64,000 bases of DNA, taken from positions 310,001-374,000 of the forward strand of contig NZ_FOSR01000002.1 of the NCBI RefSeq assembly GCF_900114325.1. Direction: 5' to 3'. Under the pieces are notes generated by a model. The model saw nothing but the letters and a program-made list of their open reading frames with translations. It had not been told where the DNA came from and searched no databases. Shown here piece by piece: positions 1-57,800 of the stretch (within the stretch, counting starts at the first letter, position 1; each line of letters opens with the position of its first letter). The position numbers were made by a program, and so were the translations under genes. This stretch comes from Rhodanobacter glycinis (GTDB lineage: Bacteria; Pseudomonadota; Gammaproteobacteria; Xanthomonadales; Rhodanobacteraceae).

Positions 1-867
1 GCCGGTCGCGCGAAGAATGATCGGCTCGATGTCATGCGCGGGCATAGGGCTAATGGAAGCCAGGAAAGCCCACTGGTCGGGGTACGGCTGGAACGTGCGA
101 TCAACGAAGACGCTGCAGCCACGGTCTCGCGATTCTTTCTGCAGCGGCAGGGCGATCAGGTTGCCGAAACCACCCTTGGGCATCGTGTCCTGGTTGGGAA
201 ATAGCCGATCGTAGGAGGTAAGCCTCAGTTGCCGGGTTCGCGCACATGCATGGCTGATGATGGCCGACCCGAGCCGCCGTGCGTCGCGCGCCGGTACAGG
301 GCCAGCGAAAAACACCCAGGCATGTGCGCCGTTGCCAGACCGCGAAACCTCCAGCGCAACAGGAACGCCCAGATCCTCGCAGGACTGTGCAAAGGCCAGG
401 ATGTCGTCCTTCCATTCCGCCTCGTCAAAATCGGCAGCCAGGAAGTGGCATGTCTCGTTGGGCATCAAGGGGTAGACGCCGACCGTATGCTTGCCTGCAA
501 GATGGTCATAGAGCACGTTGTCCAGCAGCGGAAGCAGTTGTCGATGACGGCAATCCGAGCACTTGATACGCGGTTTTTCGCAAACACCTGCGCGCCATTC
601 ATTTGCGCATGCGGGTGAATACCCGGATTTCCCCGTGGATTTGCTGGCCCATCGAACGGGATAGACATCGGTGCGCCCTCGAAACAGGCGGCGGAACAAT
701 GCCACTTTTTCCATGGTGCCAAGTGATGACGATTCGACTTCTGGCGGGATGGAGCGCACAGGCTTCGGCGGGGATGGCAATCGCCAGTCAATGCCGTTCG
801 CCTCTAGCAGTGAGACCAGTCGGGTGATTTCAGTCTGCAGTGCCGCCATGGAATCGCTGTTCGTCAT
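1..867 (-). CDS. TOTE conflict-system archaeo-eukaryotic primase protein, N-terminal part (runs off window)
   Basis: The frame is open from an ATG at 867 to the window edge, giving 289 codons of the N-terminus. The protein begins with a short helical stretch. A four-cysteine cluster (C87, C96, C103, C106; ends IKCSDC) follows and probably binds zinc. Next comes a primase-polymerase fold with the catalytic DFD motif at 146-148, SGNGAHAW at 177-184 and a conserved GGFGNLIALPLQ block near 232-243. This order matches the AEP domain of TOTE systems, where the primase is usually fused to a superfamily 2 helicase and a nuclease; those parts would lie outside the window. TOTE systems are predicted to act in conflict with phages or transposons, by analogy and not by direct proof here. 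The start has a GGTGG-type ribosome site. The gene lies 3' of tRNA-Arg on the same strand. Family recognition is firm; function is inference. Confidence 0.85.
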   Translation of the reverse strand, partial: MTNSDSMAALQTEITRLVSLLEANGIDWRLPSPPKPVRSIPPEVESSSLGTMEKVALFRRLFRGRTDVYPVRWASKSTGKSGYSPACANEWRAGVCEKPRIKCSDCRHRQLLPLLDNVLYDHLAGKHTVGVYPLMPNETCHFLAADFDEAEWKDDILAFAQSCEDLGVPVALEVSRSGNGAHAWVFFAGPVPARDARRLGSAIISHACARTRQLRLTSYDRLFPNQDTMPKGGFGNLIALPLQKESRDRGCSVFVDRTFQPYPDQWAFLASISPMPAHDIEPIILRATG

Positions 868-1204
868 GGATCATCCACCTTGCTGGCTCCCAACCGTCGC
901 AGGGCATGATACGGCGCGGGAGCACATTACAGCCTCCCTGATCGACGGAGGAAACCGCGATGTGCAGCACATTGAGTAACGATTCCCTAGTCTGAAGCCC
1001 TGTTTGGGATTCAAGCCGCGTCGACAAGGCCGGCACTTGTCTGGGGCGTGGAAAGCTATTCGCATCGTAGACAGCCGGACAGTCCTAATGGACCGAGCCA
1101 TAACGAAAAAATGGCAATTCGTGTCAGAGCCCGAGACGGCATAAAGTGTCAAAAGTGACACTTTATGGTGATTTGTCCAATCCGGATTCTGCCGGATTCC
1201 AAGA
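868..1204. other. Intergenic region between tRNA-Arg and TOTE gene
   Basis: No credible coding frame is seen in these 337 bases. They hold a perfect 11-bp-arm palindrome at 1141-1166, annotated separately. If the TOTE gene belongs to an island integrated at the tRNA, this stretch would be its left edge. No integrase is visible here. Confidence 0.6.
1141..1166. promoter_or_regulatory. Perfect 26-bp inverted repeat
   Basis: Two perfect 11-base arms (ATAAAGTGTCA at 1141-1151 and its complement at 1156-1166) flank a 4-base spacer. It is AT-rich compared with its surroundings. It lies downstream of tRNA-Arg and about 275 bases upstream of the TOTE gene on the minus strand. It could be an operator for a dimeric regulator or a weak tRNA terminator. 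There is no proper T-run after the minus-strand stem, which disfavours a terminator. Confidence 0.6.
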
Positions 1205-1281
1205 TGGTGCGCCCGGAGGGATTCGAACCCCCGACCAATGGCTTCGGAAGCCACTACTCTATCCGGCTGAGCTACGGGCGC
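1205..1281 (-). tRNA. tRNA-Arg (anticodon CCG)
   Basis: The minus strand folds as a complete cloverleaf. The 7-bp acceptor is GCGCCCG/CGGGCGC, the D stem is GCTC/GAGT, and the anticodon stem GTGGC/GCCAT carries the loop TTCCGAA, so the anticodon is CCG. The T arm has loop TTCGAAT. Discriminator A and an encoded CCA end at 1205. The 3' end faces the TOTE gene, the usual geometry for an integration site. Confidence 0.96.
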
Positions 1282-1474: not shown

Positions 1475-3376
1475 TCAGAGGGCCTTGAGCAACGGGCCCA
1501 GGGTGTCGGGCTTGCGGGTGTCGCGGACCAGGTGCGGGTACTTCAGGCCATCGTGGTAGTCGATGCGGATGGTCTTGTACTCGTCGAAGTTCTTCACCAG
1601 CAGCTCGATCGGCTGGCTCTTGTCCTTCGCCGCGGCGGTGACCGCATCACGCAGGTCGTCGCTGCTGTAGTCGTGGCCGTTCACCGCCACGATGCTCATG
1701 CCCGGCGACAGGCCGGCCTTGAACGCGGGGCCGTCCCACAGCACGTCGCCGATCTGGCCGCCCTTGCCCACCGACACGCCCAGCGAGTAGGTGAGGTTGG
1801 CGGAGTGGCGACGCGCCTCGATGGCCTTGATCGCGTCGGATGGCTTGTCGGTGTAGACCAGCTTCCAGCCATGCGACTCGATGCCGCCGATCAGCGGGCC
1901 GTGGCCATCCAGGCGGCTGCGCAGGTAGGGCGCCCAGTCGAACGGGGCGATGCCGTTGAGCGTCTTGACCACGTCGTCGAAGGTGTACGGGTTGACCGTC
2001 CACGAGCCGTTGTCCATGCCGAAGAACGCCTTGGCGAAGTCGTCGATGGACTTCTTGCCGTGGCTGAGCTCGCGCAGCTTGCCGTCCACGTCCAGCCAGA
2101 TCATCTGGCCAGCCGAGTAGTAGTCCTCACTGGACTGGTAGTTGCGGTACGGCAGCGGCGCGCGCTGGGCGATGGTCGGATCGTTGGTGGTGTCCTGCAC
2201 GTTGCGCCAGCTGGCCAGGCCCGGGCGGCCCTTGTCGTAGGTGGCCGCCACGTAGGCCCACATGTCGTGCGCCTGCTCGGTGTCCCACAAGCCGGAACGG
2301 GCAGCGATCACGTGGCCCCAGAACTGGGTCTGGCCCTCGTACACCCACAACAGGGTGTCGCCCATCGGCACGTTGAAGTTCGGCGTGGCCAGGTCGGCAC
2401 CGCGACGGTACTTGCCGTCCCAGGAGTGGTTGAACTCGTGCGAGAACAGGTCGCGGCTCAGCGCGTTCTTCTTCCACGCGGTGAAGAAATCGGGCGAGGT
2501 ACCGTCCTCGCTGGAACGATGGTGCTCCAGGCCGTTGCCGCTCATCTTGTCGCTGAGCGAGACCAGGAAGTCGTAATGGTTGTAGTGGTGCGCACCGTAC
2601 AGCTTGTACATCTGCTGCACCATGTTGCGGAACAGCTTGACCTGCTCGGGCGTGACTTCCAGGTCCTTCGCTGCGTCGGCGACGATGTCCATGTGCACCG
2701 GCGCCTTGGCGCCCGGGTCCAGGTCGATGCGCTTGAAGTACTTGCCGGCATAGATCGGCGAGTCGACCAGGTCGTCGTAGTTGATCGGCTTGTAGTGCAC
2801 GGTGTTGCCGTCGCGCGAAGCCACGTCCAGCGCGGTGCCGGCCTGCCAGCCGGCCGGGAAGGTGACGCTGGGCTGCGTCTGCACCTGCTTGGCGTAGTAG
2901 CCGGCGGGATACAGCGACACCGTGTTCCACTGCAGGTTGAGCATTTCCGGCGTCATCACCACGCGGCCTTCGCGGGTGCTCTGCGGCGACAGGAACTGGA
3001 AGTCCACTTCAACCGAGCTGGCGCCCTGCGGCACGTCGATCTGGAAAGCGTAGACGTTGTACGGATCGCGCTTCCAGGTCAGCGTCTTGCCGTTGGCCTT
3101 CACCACCAGACCGGCCAGCTTGTCGATCGGACCGGTGGGCGAATGGTGCCCGGGAATCCACTGCGGATAAAGCAGGGTCAGCGGGCCGGGCACGGCCGGC
3201 ACCACTTCATGCACGCGGAAGATGCGATGGGCGAGATCGGTGGCGTCGACGTGGATCTGCAGCGCACCGGGGGTGTACGGCGTGTTCTGCGGTGCCGGCA
3301 CGTCGGCGTGGCTGGGAAGGGCAACGAGACCGAACCCGGCGGCAACCAGGGCGGCAAGAAGTGGCGTGGCTTTCAA
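1475..3376 (-). CDS. M61 family metallopeptidase with C-terminal PDZ domain (copy 1)
   Basis: This is an exported glycyl-aminopeptidase-like protease. A signal peptide (KATPLLAALVAAGFG...SHA) is followed by the M61 N-terminal beta domain. The zinc-binding HEFNHSW lies near residues 309-315 and the downstream glutamate in WVYEGQTQFW near 345. A PDZ domain (about 529-580, GPAFKAGLSPGMSIVAVNG) follows. I chose the TTG at 3376 because AGGAGA sits 6-7 bases upstream and translation then begins right at the signal peptide; an in-frame ATG at 3406 gives ten more residues without a clear ribosome site. The next gene upstream is a paralogue of the same length and architecture. M61 enzymes cleave peptides with N-terminal Gly or Ala; the substrate here is unknown. 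Confidence 0.9.
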   Translation of the reverse strand: MKATPLLAALVAAGFGLVALPSHADVPAPQNTPYTPGALQIHVDATDLAHRIFRVHEVVPAVPGPLTLLYPQWIPGHHSPTGPIDKLAGLVVKANGKTLTWKRDPYNVYAFQIDVPQGASSVEVDFQFLSPQSTREGRVVMTPEMLNLQWNTVSLYPAGYYAKQVQTQPSVTFPAGWQAGTALDVASRDGNTVHYKPINYDDLVDSPIYAGKYFKRIDLDPGAKAPVHMDIVADAAKDLEVTPEQVKLFRNMVQQMYKLYGAHHYNHYDFLVSLSDKMSGNGLEHHRSSEDGTSPDFFTAWKKNALSRDLFSHEFNHSWDGKYRRGADLATPNFNVPMGDTLLWVYEGQTQFWGHVIAARSGLWDTEQAHDMWAYVAATYDKGRPGLASWRNVQDTTNDPTIAQRAPLPYRNYQSSEDYYSAGQMIWLDVDGKLRELSHGKKSIDDFAKAFFGMDNGSWTVNPYTFDDVVKTLNGIAPFDWAPYLRSRLDGHGPLIGGIESHGWKLVYTDKPSDAIKAIEARRHSANLTYSLGVSVGKGGQIGDVLWDGPAFKAGLSPGMSIVAVNGHDYSSDDLRDAVTAAAKDKSQPIELLVKNFDEYKTIRIDYHDGLKYPHLVRDTRKPDTLGPLLKAL

Positions 3377-3436
3377 GGGACTCTCCTGACAACGAACCCA
3401 TCGCAAAAGATTGCGACGGCAGACAAGGGTCCGATG

Positions 3437-3518: not shown

Positions 3519-5447
3519 TCATTTCTTCAGCGGTGCCACGATGGCCCCGATCAGGTCCTTGCCACCGGCACGCACCAGGTGCGGATAGCGCAGGCCACCG
3601 TGGTAGTCGATCGACACCGTGTTGTAGACGTCGATGTTCTTCACCAGCAGGGTGATCGGTGCGTCGCCGGTCTTGGCCGCCTTCACCGCGTCCTTCAGAC
3701 GCTCGGACGAGAAGTCCTTGCCGTCCACCGCCACGATGGTCAGCCCCGGCACCAGGCCGGCCTTGAATGCCGGACCGTTCCACTGCACGTCGTAGATGCT
3801 GCCGCTACTGGAAGCGGACAGGCCGATCGAATAGGCCATGTTGGCGCCGTGGCGGATGCTTTCCATCGCCTTGGTCGCGGCATTCGGCTTGTCGGTGTAG
3901 ACCAGCTTCCAGCCACCGCGGTCGATGCCCTTCTCCGGCAGGTTCGGACCGGTGTAATCCAGTCGCGCCCGCAGGAACGTTGCCCAGTCGAACGGCTGCA
4001 CCTGATTGAGCGTGTGGATCACGTCGTCGAAGGTGTAGGTCTTGGTGACGTAGCTGCCGTTGTCCATGCCGTAGAAGGCGCGCGCGAAATCATCCAGCGA
4101 ATGCTTGCCGCCGCTGAGTTCGCGGATCTTGGTATCCACGTCCAGCCACAGCAACTGGCCTTCCGGATAGAAATCGGTGCCGCGGCGCCAGTTGGCCCAG
4201 CCGCCACCGCCGTAATAGGTCAGCGGCGCGGCGTCGGCGGTGTCCTGCAGCGAACGCCAGGCGCGACCGGTGCGCGCGCTCATCGCCGCGTCCATGTTGG
4301 CCATGACATCGCGGTATTGCGCCGGTGTCCACAGGCCCGAGCGCGCGGTGAGCACGCTGCACCAGTAATCGGTGAGGCCCTCGTACACCCACAGCAGGTC
4401 GTCCTGTTCCTTCACGTTGAAGTTGGGCGTCCACAAATCGGCCGGACGGCGGAACTTGCCGTTCCACGAGTGCACGTACTCGTGCGTCATCAGGCTCGCC
4501 GCCAGCGTGTGCATGTCGTCGTTGGTGAAGAAGTCGGCGGGCAGGCGATCATCGCTCGACTGGTGATGCTCCAGTCCGAAGTGGCCGGTGTGGTCGGACA
4601 GCGTGAGCAGGAAGTCGTAGTGGTCGTAATGGTGCGAGCCGAACAGCAGGCCGGTCTGCTTCACCATCGAGCGCTGTTCGTCAAGCTGCTTGGTGGTCAG
4701 CTTCACGTCGTCGGCCGCGTCGCCCACCACGTTCAGATGCACCGGTACCTTGGCGCCGGGCGCCAGGTCGACGCGGTCGAAATGCGTGCCGGCGATCAGC
4801 GGCGAATCGACGAAGTTGTTGAAGGTCACCGGCTTGAAGGTGATGGCGTTGCCGGCCTGGCTTTCCACCTGCAGCGCCGTGCCGAACTTCCAGCCTTGCG
4901 GCAATTCCACGGTCGGCTGGATGTGGATCTGGCTGGAATAATGCCCGGCCGGATAGAAGGCCACCTGGTTGAATTCCACGTCCACGAAATTCGGCGTGGA
5001 CGAGGCGCTGGCGCCGAACAGGCTGCCCTGCCCCGGTGCCGGCGACAGGAACTGGAACGACACGTCGAGCTGGCTCACGCCCGCGGGTACGTCAAGGTTG
5101 ATCGCGAACATGTCGCGCAGGTCGCGCCGCCACGGCAACTGCTTGCCGTTGGCTGTGATGATCAGGCCGGCGACGTTCTGGATCGGGCCGGATGGCGCAT
5201 GCTCGCCGGGGATCCACTCCGGATACAGCAGCGTGAACGGGCCGGACGTCACCGGAATCGTTTCGTGCACGCGGAAGATCCGCTTCGCCGCATCGGTGAG
5301 ATCGACCTTGACCGCCAGCGTGCCCGGATACGGCTGGTCCACCGGCGCCGGCCGCGAGGCATCCTGCGCGAACGATGCCGCAGACAACGACAAGGCCCCG
5401 ATCACCGCGGCGGCGATCAGGCTGGAACGAAAGGCAGGGATTTTCAC
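3519..5447 (-). CDS. M61 family metallopeptidase with C-terminal PDZ domain (copy 2)
   Basis: A paralogue of the downstream gene with the same layout. It has a signal peptide (MKIPAFRSSLIAAAVIGALSL...FAQ) and an N-terminal beta domain. The catalytic HEYVHSW lies near residue 322 with a third zinc ligand in WVYEGLTDYW near 354. The PDZ segment GPAFKAGLVPGLTIVAVDG lies near 540-590. The zinc and PDZ motifs are well conserved between the two copies while the rest has drifted, which suggests an old tandem duplication. About 140 bases separate this stop from the start of copy 1. A block upstream of each gene is also conserved (3412-3478 and 5521-5589), so promoter sequence was duplicated too. It is predicted to be periplasmic or secreted. 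Confidence 0.92.
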   Translation of the reverse strand: MKIPAFRSSLIAAAVIGALSLSAASFAQDASRPAPVDQPYPGTLAVKVDLTDAAKRIFRVHETIPVTSGPFTLLYPEWIPGEHAPSGPIQNVAGLIITANGKQLPWRRDLRDMFAINLDVPAGVSQLDVSFQFLSPAPGQGSLFGASASSTPNFVDVEFNQVAFYPAGHYSSQIHIQPTVELPQGWKFGTALQVESQAGNAITFKPVTFNNFVDSPLIAGTHFDRVDLAPGAKVPVHLNVVGDAADDVKLTTKQLDEQRSMVKQTGLLFGSHHYDHYDFLLTLSDHTGHFGLEHHQSSDDRLPADFFTNDDMHTLAASLMTHEYVHSWNGKFRRPADLWTPNFNVKEQDDLLWVYEGLTDYWCSVLTARSGLWTPAQYRDVMANMDAAMSARTGRAWRSLQDTADAAPLTYYGGGGWANWRRGTDFYPEGQLLWLDVDTKIRELSGGKHSLDDFARAFYGMDNGSYVTKTYTFDDVIHTLNQVQPFDWATFLRARLDYTGPNLPEKGIDRGGWKLVYTDKPNAATKAMESIRHGANMAYSIGLSASSSGSIYDVQWNGPAFKAGLVPGLTIVAVDGKDFSSERLKDAVKAAKTGDAPITLLVKNIDVYNTVSIDYHGGLRYPHLVRAGGKDLIGAIVAPLKK

Positions 5448-18949: not shown

Positions 18950-20236
18950 ATGTCGTCCATTCCGCTTGCCACCGACGAGTCACGCACGTCGAACCTGTTG
19001 CCGATGATCATCATCGGCGTGCTGTTCTTCATCTTCGGCTTCGTCACCTGGCTCAACGGTCCACTGACCATCTTCGTGAAGCTGGCCTTCAACCTCGACG
19101 ATGTCAGCGCCTTCCTGGTGCCGTTTGCGTTCTACGTGTCGTATTTCGTGCTGGCGCTGCCGTCGGCGGCCGTGCTCAAGCGCACCGGCATGAAGAAAGG
19201 CATGGCGCTGGGCCTGTTCGTGATGGCCATCGGTTCGGTGCTGTTCGGCCAGTTCATCGACATGCGCAACTACCACGGTGCGCTGGTCGGCCTGTTCGTG
19301 ATCGGCGCCGGCCTGTCGCTGCTGCAGACGGCATCGAATCCGTACATCAGCATTCTCGGGCCGATCGACAGCGCGGCCCAGCGCGTGGCCTTCATGGGCA
19401 TCTGCAACAAGCTGGCCGGCTTCCTCGCCCCGTTCGTGTTCGGCGCACTGGTGCTGCACGGCATCGATGCATTGGCGCAGCAGGTCAAGGCCGCACCCAG
19501 TCCCGCCGCCGCCACCGAACTGCTCAACCATTTCGCCTCGCGGGTCTACTGGCCGTACATGATCATGGCCGCGCTGCTGGTGCTGCTGGCGATCTGGGTG
19601 GTGCGCTCCTCGCTGCCGGAGATCAAGCCGACCGGCGCCAACAGCGAGGGCCAGATCGGCCACAAGGGCGGCAGCATCTTCAGCTTCCCGCACCTGTGGC
19701 TGGGCGTGCTGTGCCTGTTCCTTTACGTGGGCGTGGAAGTGATGGCCGGCGACGCCATCGGTATCTACGGCCTGGCGCTGGGCTTGCCGCTGGACGCGAC
19801 CAAGCATTTCACCGCGTTCACCATGTTCGCGATGCTGGCCGGCTACGTGGTGGGCCTGGCCCTGATCCCGCGTTTCATCTCGCAGCAGCGTTACCTGGCG
19901 GTGTCGGCGGTGATGGGCGTGCTGTTCGCCATCGGTGCCTACGTCACCCACGGTTACGCCTCGATCGCCTTCGTCGCCGCGCTGGGCTTTGCCAACGCGA
20001 TGATGTGGCCGGCGATCTTCCCGCTGGCGATCAAGGGCCTGGGCAGCCACACCGAATTCGGCTCGGCCCTGCTGATCATGGGCATCGTGGGTGGCGCGCT
20101 GATTCCACAGGTGTTCGTGCACCTGAAGGAACACATCGATTTCCAGCTGGCGTTCCTGGTGGTGATCGTGCCGTGCTACCTGTACATCCTGTACTACGGC
20201 ATGCGCGGACACGCCGTGGGCGAGCACGTGGGCTGA
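18950..20236 (+). CDS. nagP: N-acetylglucosamine MFS transporter NagP
   Basis: A 12-helix major facilitator protein of 428 residues in the FucP/NagP branch. The first helix MIIIGVLFFIFGFVTWLNG and the following PLTIFVKLAFNL are typical of this group, and GLSLLQTASNPYI and the central loop also fit. It imports GlcNAc across the inner membrane by proton symport in known relatives. The start at 18950 (MSSIPLATDESRT) has GGGGA upstream. The lacI-type regulator, nagB-II and nagA follow on the same strand, and a divergent sugar kinase precedes it. It is probably induced by GlcNAc or GlcNAc-6-P through release of the LacI protein from the two operators upstream. Confidence 0.93.
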   Translation: MSSIPLATDESRTSNLLPMIIIGVLFFIFGFVTWLNGPLTIFVKLAFNLDDVSAFLVPFAFYVSYFVLALPSAAVLKRTGMKKGMALGLFVMAIGSVLFGQFIDMRNYHGALVGLFVIGAGLSLLQTASNPYISILGPIDSAAQRVAFMGICNKLAGFLAPFVFGALVLHGIDALAQQVKAAPSPAAATELLNHFASRVYWPYMIMAALLVLLAIWVVRSSLPEIKPTGANSEGQIGHKGGSIFSFPHLWLGVLCLFLYVGVEVMAGDAIGIYGLALGLPLDATKHFTAFTMFAMLAGYVVGLALIPRFISQQRYLAVSAVMGVLFAIGAYVTHGYASIAFVAALGFANAMMWPAIFPLAIKGLGSHTEFGSALLIMGIVGGALIPQVFVHLKEHIDFQLAFLVVIVPCYLYILYYGMRGHAVGEHVG

Positions 20237-54871: not shown

Positions 54872-57800
54872 ATGACGCAGGAGCAGCAGCAAGAAAGCGG
54901 GGTGCGCCAAGAGGAACCGCTTCGCATCGAAGCAACTCTTGTCACCAAGCTCAATCTGGCCGCGTTTCAGAACGCGGTCCCGGTGATCGCAAGTTTGACC
55001 ATCGTCAACGACACCGATGCCCGGATAAGTGACCTCGAACTCGCCGTCACCTCCGAGCCGACCTTCTTCCAGCCCAAAACCTGGCGAATCGATGAAATCG
55101 GCACGCACAGTCGCTATCGGGTACCTCTCCCGGATATCGCACTGGATGGCAGCCTGCTCAGCCGCCTGACCGAAGCCGAGACCGCGACAGTTTCCTTTGT
55201 GCTCCGCACTACTGATGCAGAAACTTCCGCGATGGCGAAATCCGACGTGAAGCTGGAGCTGTTGCCGCGAAACCAGTGGGGAGGCCTGTCGAGCCTGCCC
55301 GACTTGGTCGCCGCCTTCGTCCAGCCCAACGAACCTGCTGTTGAGCGCTTGCTCAAACAGGCCGCTGACGTACTGCGCAAGAGCGGCAAGAATTCGGCGC
55401 TGGATGGTTATGCAGGCGGTGCGCGACGGGTCTGGGAGCTGACTTCCGCCATCTGGAGCGCCGTCGCATCGATGAAGCTGGATTACGCCCTGCCGCCAGC
55501 CAGCTTCGAGCACTCCGGGCAGAAGGTGCGAGGCCCCGGGCAGATCGCCGAATCCGGCCTCGCCACCTGCCTGGACTCCTCCTTGCTGTTCTGCTCTGCC
55601 CTGGAACAGGCGGGACTCAATCCGCTGCTGGTATTCACACGCGGCCATGCGTTCGCTGGCGTTTGGCTCAAAGACGAACAATTCTCGACAACCGTCATCG
55701 ACGACGTGACCGCACTGCGCAAGCGGGTGCGACTCAAGGAACTGGTGCTGTTCGAGACGACCTTGATCGCCCAACATCCTGTTCCAGCTTTCTCCTACGC
55801 TGCCGAACGCGCCAACCAACAGATTGCCGAGAGCCACGACGAAACCTTCGAGCTTGCGGTCGATGTCCGCCGTGCGCGCATGCAGCGCATCAAGCCGTTG
55901 GCGAGTACCGAAGCAACGCCACGCCAGGCACAGAGCGCGCCTGCCGTCCCACCCGATGTCGAACTGGGCATCGAAGAGGCTCCCGACCTGCCCGGCGAGT
56001 TCACGGCGGCCACCAGTGTCGAACCGGCAGCACTCGATCCTAGGGATCGCCTCGCGCGCTGGCAGCGCAAGCTGCTGGACCTTTCGCTGCGCAACAACCT
56101 GCTCAACTTCAAGGAGGGCAAGCGCGCACTTCGTCTCGACGTGCCGGACCCCGGTGCGCTCGAAGACCTGCTCGCCACCAACGAAACACTGAAGCTGCTG
56201 CCGCGCCCCGATCTCATGACGGGCGCCGATCCCCGCAATCAGGCGCTATACGAGGAACGTGAACGCGAAAACGTGCAACGCCAGCACGCGCTTGATGCAC
56301 TGAGGCGGCGCGAAATCTTCGTCGGCCTCTCCCAACAGGATCTCGAAACACGCCTGATCGACCTCTATCGCACCGCGCGCACCTCGCTGCAGGAAGGTGG
56401 CGCAAACACCTTGTATGTCGCATTGGGCTTTCTGTCATGGACCCGCGACGATCGCGATGAACGACGTTACCGCGCGCCCCTGATCCTGCTTCCCGTGACA
56501 TTGCAGCGACATAACGCGCGCTCGGGCTTCACCTTCGCACTCCATGACGACGAGCCACGCTTCAATCCCACGCTGATCGAAATGCTTCGCCAGGATTTCC
56601 GTCTCGGGCTGGGTGTCGCGGAAGGCGAGCTGCCCCGGGACGATGCCGGGCTCGACGTCGACCGGATATGGCAGAGCGTCGAACACGCGATCAAGGACAT
56701 CAAAGGTTGGGAGGTCAGCCGAGAAGTCGTGCTGTCCACATTCTCCTTCGCAAAATATCTGATGTGGAAGGATCTAGCGGAACGCACCGATCAGTTGCGA
56801 GAGAACTCGGTCGTACGCCATTTGCTCGACACGCCACGCGACCACTTTGACTCGAACATCCCCTTCCCGGACACCATCCGCCTCGACAGCGACTTCAGCC
56901 CAAGCCAGGTGTTCTGCCCACTGGCTGCTGATTCGTCGCAGCTGTCGGCGATCATGGCTGCTGCACGCGGCAAGAATTTCGTCCTGATCGGGCCGCCGGG
57001 AACAGGCAAGAGCCAGACCATCGCCAATCTCATCGCGCAGTCCGTTGCCGAGGGAAAACGCGTACTGTTCGTTTCCGAAAAAATCGCGGCGCTCGATGTC
57101 GTCTATCGCCGTCTACGCGAAGTGAAACTCGGCGAATTCTGCCTCGAGCTACATTCGAGCAAAGCCCGAAAAACTGACGTCCTCGCCCAGCTGAACGCCG
57201 CATGGGAAGCCCGCGGGAAAGCCGACGCCGGTGCCTGGCAAGCCCAAGCCGAGCATCTGGCTGAATTGCGCCATACGCTGAACGGGTACGTTCAGAGCTT
57301 GCATCGCCGATACAGCAACGGCTGGTCGATCTACGATGCCATCGGGCAACTCAGTGCGAACCCTGAACTGGAAGGGCTCGGCTTTTCCTGGCCCTCGTTT
57401 GCCGCACACGATGCAACCACCATGGCGGCCATGCGCGACGTGTCCGACCGGCTGGAGGTGAATGCGCAATCCGTCGGATACGAGTCGCTCACGACACATG
57501 CCCTGGCCACTATCGGACAAGTGGAGTGGTCGCCGAGCTGGCAGCAGCGCACCGTCGACGCCGCACGAAAAGCCCTGCCTGCCGTGCGCGCCATGCAACA
57601 CTGCGTCGATCAGTTCGCGCAGGCAACTGGACTATCTTTACCACTATCGGATCGGCGGGCCGTGCAAGCGCTGGAGCAACTTGCCCGATGCTTGCCGACC
57701 GCAGCCGGCCGCGACTGGCGTTTTGCGCTGCGCCCGGATGCCCGCGTGATTGCGCAACGCCTGCAAGAAGGTCTCGAACTGATAAACCTGCATTTTGACA

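Follow-up and report, generated by a model that had tools for sequence, protein, structure and literature searches.

A probable one-gene Tn7-like mini-element carrying a TOTE-type PrimPol-helicase beside tRNA-Arg(CCG) in Rhodanobacter glycinis

The DNA adjoining a tRNA-Arg(CCG) gene of Rhodanobacter glycinis is very probably a Tn7-like transposon of the non-autonomous kind, with a single gene that codes for a TOTE-type PrimPol-SF2 helicase. The gene crosses the left edge of the window, that is, the whole stretch of 64,000 nucleotides that was analysed (G000:C14:310001-374000), and it was completed in a left extension of the contig, called L009 in the coordinates below. The element spans 2,911 bp (C14:308269-311179, corresponding to L009:16269-19179) and the TOTE gene is the sole gene within it. 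Features located in the window are collected in Table 1.

Table 1. Features of the mini-element and of its tRNA site, in window coordinates
Feature	Position	Strand	Remarks
Probable Tn7-like mini-element, part in window	1..1179	.	Inverted ends, 4-bp duplication, ends shared with transposase-bearing elements
TOTE-type PrimPol-helicase gene, 5' part	1..867	-	Open frame cut by the left edge of the window
Right end of the transposon; its 77 nt are conserved in autonomous elements	1103..1179	-	
Palindrome with 12-bp arms, inverted transposase-site-like motifs	1140..1167	.	Inside the right end
First TnsB-site-like motif, TGGACAAATCACCATAAAGTGTCA (minus-strand reading)	1156-1179	-	In the right end
Target-site duplication ATCC, right copy	1180..1183	.	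The left copy (L009:16265-16268) lies beyond the window
Spacer of 25 nt separating the element from the tRNA 3' end	1180..1204	.	
tRNA-Arg(CCG), intact, CCA encoded at the 3' end	1205..1281	-	Attachment site of the Tn7-like family
M61-type glycyl aminopeptidase gene	1475..3406	-	Host flank conserved 5' of the tRNA in relatives

Boundaries of the element and its chromosomal site

The element is delimited by an inverted pair of 24-nt sequences, 5'-TGGACAAATnnCCATAAAGTG, which lie outside the gene and are identical at 21 of 24 positions (L009:16269-16292 and 19156-19179). The two flanks, once joined, align to the tRNA flank of genome G004 over 103 bp at 83%, an alignment that consists mostly of the tRNA itself; past the junction, agreement is limited to about 31 of 43 bases. 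A terminator-like hairpin lies to the left of the element, about 3 kb from the tRNA, and in silico removal of the element brings the tRNA again beside a terminator-like sequence resembling that of relatives; the insertion would have separated the tRNA from its terminator. In the left end, a perfect palindrome with 19-bp arms (TGACACGATATGCCTGAAA and TTTCAGGCATATCGTGTCA, 1 nt apart; L009:16331-16369; fold z -7.2) possibly represents two inverted transposase sites or the terminator of the TOTE gene. A scan for sigma-70 promoters found none. The CATAAAGTG palindrome was also considered as the operator of an AbiE-type toxin-antitoxin system, a reading that was rejected because the same block forms the end of transposons with different cargo.

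As the initial annotation had described, the gene is on the same strand as, and 3' of, a complete tRNA-Arg(CCG) with encoded CCA; the distance is about 338 bp. The DNA behind this tRNA differs among the 13 same-genus genomes examined, which makes the site a hotspot, and a TOTE gene is found beside it in none of these 13 flanks. Acquisition of the region adjoining the tRNA by horizontal transfer is therefore supported, and this part of the proposal of an acquired region stands; its extent had to be revised, since what was acquired is not large, starts 25 nt past the tRNA and corresponds to a one-gene Tn7-like element of 2.9 kb. In another genome of the genus (G008), a TOTE gene 80-84% identical lies without transposon ends and adjoins an RpoH-like sigma factor gene.

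Leftward of the element lie genes for an RpiR/SIS regulator, a POT transporter, a dipeptide epimerase-like enzyme, a serine hydrolase, a TonB receptor and signalling proteins; a close homologue of the RpiR gene (74%) is present in only one of the 13 same-genus genomes, elsewhere in that genome. On the other side, a second M61-type glycyl aminopeptidase gene (window 3519-5447) is in tandem with the first, and the pair is conserved beside the tRNA in relatives. A tRNA-Gly(GCC) of 96 nt called by ARAGORN at window 56004-56099 has no Rfam support and is probably a false call.

Related elements, a second end family and target-site duplications

Among 233 genomes of the family, the right-end block occurs in the R. 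glycinis genome and in five others (G014, G032, G121, G197 and G232), in which 68-77 of 80 nt are identical to it, against a maximum of 33 in 2,000 control stretches. In four of the five, 23-25 nt separate the block from tRNA-Arg(CCG); the element of the fifth, G121, has the opposite orientation, with its other end 26 nt from the same tRNA. Insertion at a fixed distance (23-26 nt) beside a conserved gene is observed in six genomes. Outside the family, a search of 398 genomes from the same order added only two matches with 3 mismatches, both in ordinary genes without a tRNA.

Complete elements were delimited in G121 (28,012 bp) and G197 (40,255 bp). They encode TniQ (PF06527, 2e-13), a TniB/AAA protein (3e-12) and an 803-aa fusion with a TnsA-like N-terminus (PF08722, 3e-6), and a TnsA-TnsB fusion, TnsC and TniQ are encoded in G121, G197 and G232. 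TnsAB at 69% identity or more was found only in these three of the 233 genomes, and all three bear the right end; with this search as positive control, no TnsAB was found in the R. glycinis genome. The mini-element has no TnsA, TnsB, TnsC or TniQ/TnsD of its own, and we class it as non-autonomous because the transposase is missing from both element and host. Its left end aligns with the left ends of the complete elements, so that inverted, multi-site ends are recognised by homology to those of TnsAB-encoding elements, with the TnsB sites being putative. By these alignments the ends belong to a Tn7-like family homing to tRNA-Arg(CCG), whose cargo includes type I restriction-modification (R-M; HsdR, E 0, and HsdM), a GajB-like UvrD helicase, ZacB/C-like proteins and others. 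The far end was not found in G232, and the contigs of G032 and G014 stop before it. In G014, which is of the same genus and has no TnsAB match, the right end lies behind tRNA-Arg(CCG) on a contig that stops 1.4 kb further on (L057:3325-4721); it may belong to another mini-element.

A second element of the same kind was found in Rhodanobacter sp. A1T4 (L194), where a TOTE gene (80% identical) is the only gene in 3,236 bp located 24 nt past a tRNA-Met. Its ends, TGTGGC(T/G)GAAA(G/C)CATAA(G/A)TTGGCC, are of a different family from those of the R. glycinis element. Ends of the A1T4 type bound a 34-kb element of Rudaea sp. 3F27F6, which encodes TniQ (2e-13), TniB/AAA (2e-9) and an 809-aa TnsAB-like protein whose matches to TnsA, rve and Mu_C are weak and fall short of the curated cutoffs, and which carries Wadjet (JetC, E 0; JetD, 1e-143) together with TOTE. 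Two Tn7-like end families have thus acquired TOTE, and each includes one element, or a close relative of one, with TOTE as its only gene. When 88 TOTE loci were scanned for flanking inverted repeats, only the R. glycinis and A1T4 elements were top-ranked, with 16 and 15 against a background of 14; this being only slightly above background, the claim is based instead on tRNA spacing, duplication and homologous ends.

Directly after the A1T4 mini-element (L194:8440-8700), two GACACTTTCCGCTGGGAA-like copies and another GAAAGCATAGTTTGGCC motif are present, as if additional transposon ends followed one another in tandem behind tRNA-Met. The tRNA-Met attachment site of the Rudaea element (L223:1329-1581) appears to be interrupted by a group I intron (Rfam RF00028, 66.6 bits); this tRNA was missed by ARAGORN, and its 3' half and CCA are present.

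Target-site duplications are exactly 4 bp in the five delimited elements out of five: ATCC in R. glycinis, CCGG in G121, TGTC in G197, CGTG in A1T4 and CTTT in Rudaea. None of 20 mispaired flanks, used as control, matched. A 5-bp duplication is described for Tn7 and all related elements (PMC11406308), and the R. glycinis element does not show one. Since transposase-bearing relatives also have 4 bp, this length looks like a property of the branch and, if confirmed, it would set the branch apart mechanistically from other members of the Tn7 group.

The PrimPol-helicase and the likely function of the cargo

The complete TOTE gene (C14:308501-310867) is a single intact ORF of 788 codons' worth of protein (788 aa). 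Its product matches AEP-TOTE at residues 53-281 (Pfam, E 1.1e-100; 336 bits against a curated cutoff of 27), a match far beyond chance, and the same protein has the SF2 helicase domains ResIII (428-571, E 2.6e-23) and Helicase_C (645-744, E 1.3e-6). The TOTE-type primase that had been read from the 5' part of the frame, with DFD, SGNGAHAW, a four-Cys cluster and GGFGNLIALPLQK, is borne out in all its motifs, the second appearing as SRSGNGAHAW and the cysteines at positions 87, 96, 103 and 106. A helicase and a nuclease had also been anticipated in this protein: the former was recovered with the left extension, and no nuclease domain was found by Pfam in the 788 aa. Full-length relatives measure 777-903 aa, which indicates that the protein is complete and that the missing nuclease is not a matter of truncation.

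In about 80 of these full-length relatives, the Cys cluster, DxD, SxGxH, the third Asp and GGFGNLIALP are conserved at 98-100%, and likewise Walker A, DECH, TAT and motif VI. In a PDB profile search the first half of the protein matches CAPP-type Prim-Pol chains and the second half XPB, RadD and UvsW. For the predicted structure of the A1T4 homologue, the fold matches do no more than confirm the XPB/UvsW-like helicase; with a mean pLDDT of 66.5 and a pTM of 0.34, it is too poor to argue against a hidden domain. Judged from domains and motifs, the protein is an AEP-TOTE primase fused to an XPB/UvsW-like SF2 helicase with intact catalytic motifs, which suggest that it would be biochemically active.

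TOTE relatives are common, being present on 294 plasmid records and in more than 580 genome stretches. In 18 of 91 TOTE loci (e.g. L123, L124, L127 and L139), an ORF of about 183 aa shares about 8 bp with the start of TOTE; its match to DUF6155 is weak and below cutoff (E 0.004), it is absent from the R. glycinis element and it is likely to encode a partner protein of TOTE. Other upstream neighbours in the 91 loci are a 385-aa ORF (in 8) and HsdR, RhuM and a YhcG nuclease (8 each), and AbiE-like nucleotidyltransferases and toxin-antitoxin genes also recur beside TOTE genes. In G051 (L073:10886-12353), a TOTE gene about 50% identical lies directly behind what was judged by eye to be an AbiEi/AbiEii-like toxin-antitoxin pair. 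R-M is the commonest defence cargo of Tn7-like elements (PMC8649781). From its neighbourhood and from the exchange of cargo at the same site, we infer that TOTE is a conflict or defence enzyme. The literature searched contained no experiment on any TOTE protein; CAPP Prim-Pols are DNA-dependent DNA polymerases (PMC8211822), and CAPP-like Prim-Pols of the non-CRISPR type, which often include a helicase domain, reside mostly on mobile elements (PMC8211822).

Origin, implications and comparison with known systems

The position behind a tRNA gene had suggested an integrase-type genomic island with the tRNA 3' end as att site, and P4-type integrase genes behind the same tRNA-Arg(CCG) in G002 and G003 indicate that the site is used in this way too. 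For the R. glycinis region we consider such an island highly improbable: the boundary is 25 nt off the tRNA and has transposon ends and a 4-bp duplication, a nearby integrase and a second copy of the tRNA end had been predicted, and neither an integrase among the neighbours examined nor a direct repeat of the tRNA 3' end was found. A more serious rival, on the question of origin, is that the element is a dead remnant, no longer mobile, in which a full Tn7-like element lost tnsABC-tniQ and the other cargo by internal deletion; this is a sub-reading of the non-autonomous transposon and not its opposite. It is a real possibility, which we hold to be somewhat improbable: the product of an internal deletion would look identical to a mini-element, the host genome has no transposase and full elements with the same ends measure 28-40 kb, but both ends, the duplication, the complete ORF and all motifs are intact, and the second TOTE-only element, with unrelated ends, would need the same improbable deletion twice.

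As for the cargo, it could serve as an accessory of mobile elements in DNA repair or replication (plasmid or transposon replication) and not as a defence enzyme. We regard this as unlikely, since the genes that recur beside TOTE are those of type I R-M, RhuM, the YhcG nuclease, AbiE-like proteins and toxin-antitoxin systems, and since Tn7-like elements at this site carry defence genes; the presence of relatives on plasmids, the resemblance of the helicase to XPB, UvsW and RadD, and the location of CAPP-like Prim-Pols mostly on mobile elements are in its favour.

Under the preferred reading of a non-autonomous Tn7-like transposon, the ends would be recognised by the transposase of the family, acting in trans or before its loss, and TniQ would recognise the tRNA gene and direct insertion to a point about 25 nt downstream of it, so that the tRNA stays intact. 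The helicase would then open foreign DNA or translocate on it, and the PrimPol domain would prime or copy this DNA, so disturbing the replication of phages or plasmids. A broader and rather doubtful extension is that single-gene PrimPol-helicase mini-elements are recurrent satellites of the Tn7 family, which have ends only, depend on the TnsABC-TniQ of resident elements, insert at tRNA genes with a duplication of 4 bp and perhaps employ the PrimPol-helicase for defence as well as for their own spread.

Surveys that start from tnsB are blind to Tn7-like elements that lost or never had this gene, and here the ends alone suffice to delimit a one-gene cassette, giving a sharp boundary to a little-studied PrimPol-helicase. 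One likely defence gene could in this way travel without its own transposase. Moreover, the ends together with the TnsABC-TniQ of a relative would constitute a two-plasmid system for studying trans-mobilisation.

The closest known system is the Tn7-like branch with fused TnsAB in which TniQ evolved to use tRNA genes (PMC11406308) and from which the type I-B2 and I-D CASTs arose (PMC11406308, PMC10293859). The autonomous relatives of the R. glycinis element share with this branch the TnsAB fusion, TnsC and TniQ, and other likenesses are the insertion at a constant, short distance on the 3' side of a tRNA, the asymmetric ends with repeated binding-site-like motifs and the defence cargo. The R. 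glycinis element differs in having no transposase genes, a single cargo gene and a duplication of 4 instead of 5 bp, and the spacing is 22-26 nt here against the 30-33 nt reported for CyCAST homing (PMC11406308, PMC10293859). Its protein matches the AEP-TOTE family (PF22548) over full length and keeps all AEP motifs and the Cys cluster, whereas the gene stands alone, without the partner ORF of about 183 aa, and no nuclease domain was found. With the helicase-fused CRISPR-associated Prim-Pol (CAPP_A; chains 7nqd/7nqf/7p9j) it shares a related core (profile E 2e-17) and the order of PrimPol followed by helicase, but its 78.8 bits are below the NCBIfam equivalog cutoff of 200, and the neighbours translated from the 18 kb on the left side of the tRNA include no CRISPR-Cas genes. 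XPB/Rad25 and T4 UvsW share the SF2 core and give the C-terminal half its best matches in both sequence and fold; in contrast to them, the helicase described here is fused to a primase and scores far below the equivalog cutoffs (68 against 610 for XPB).
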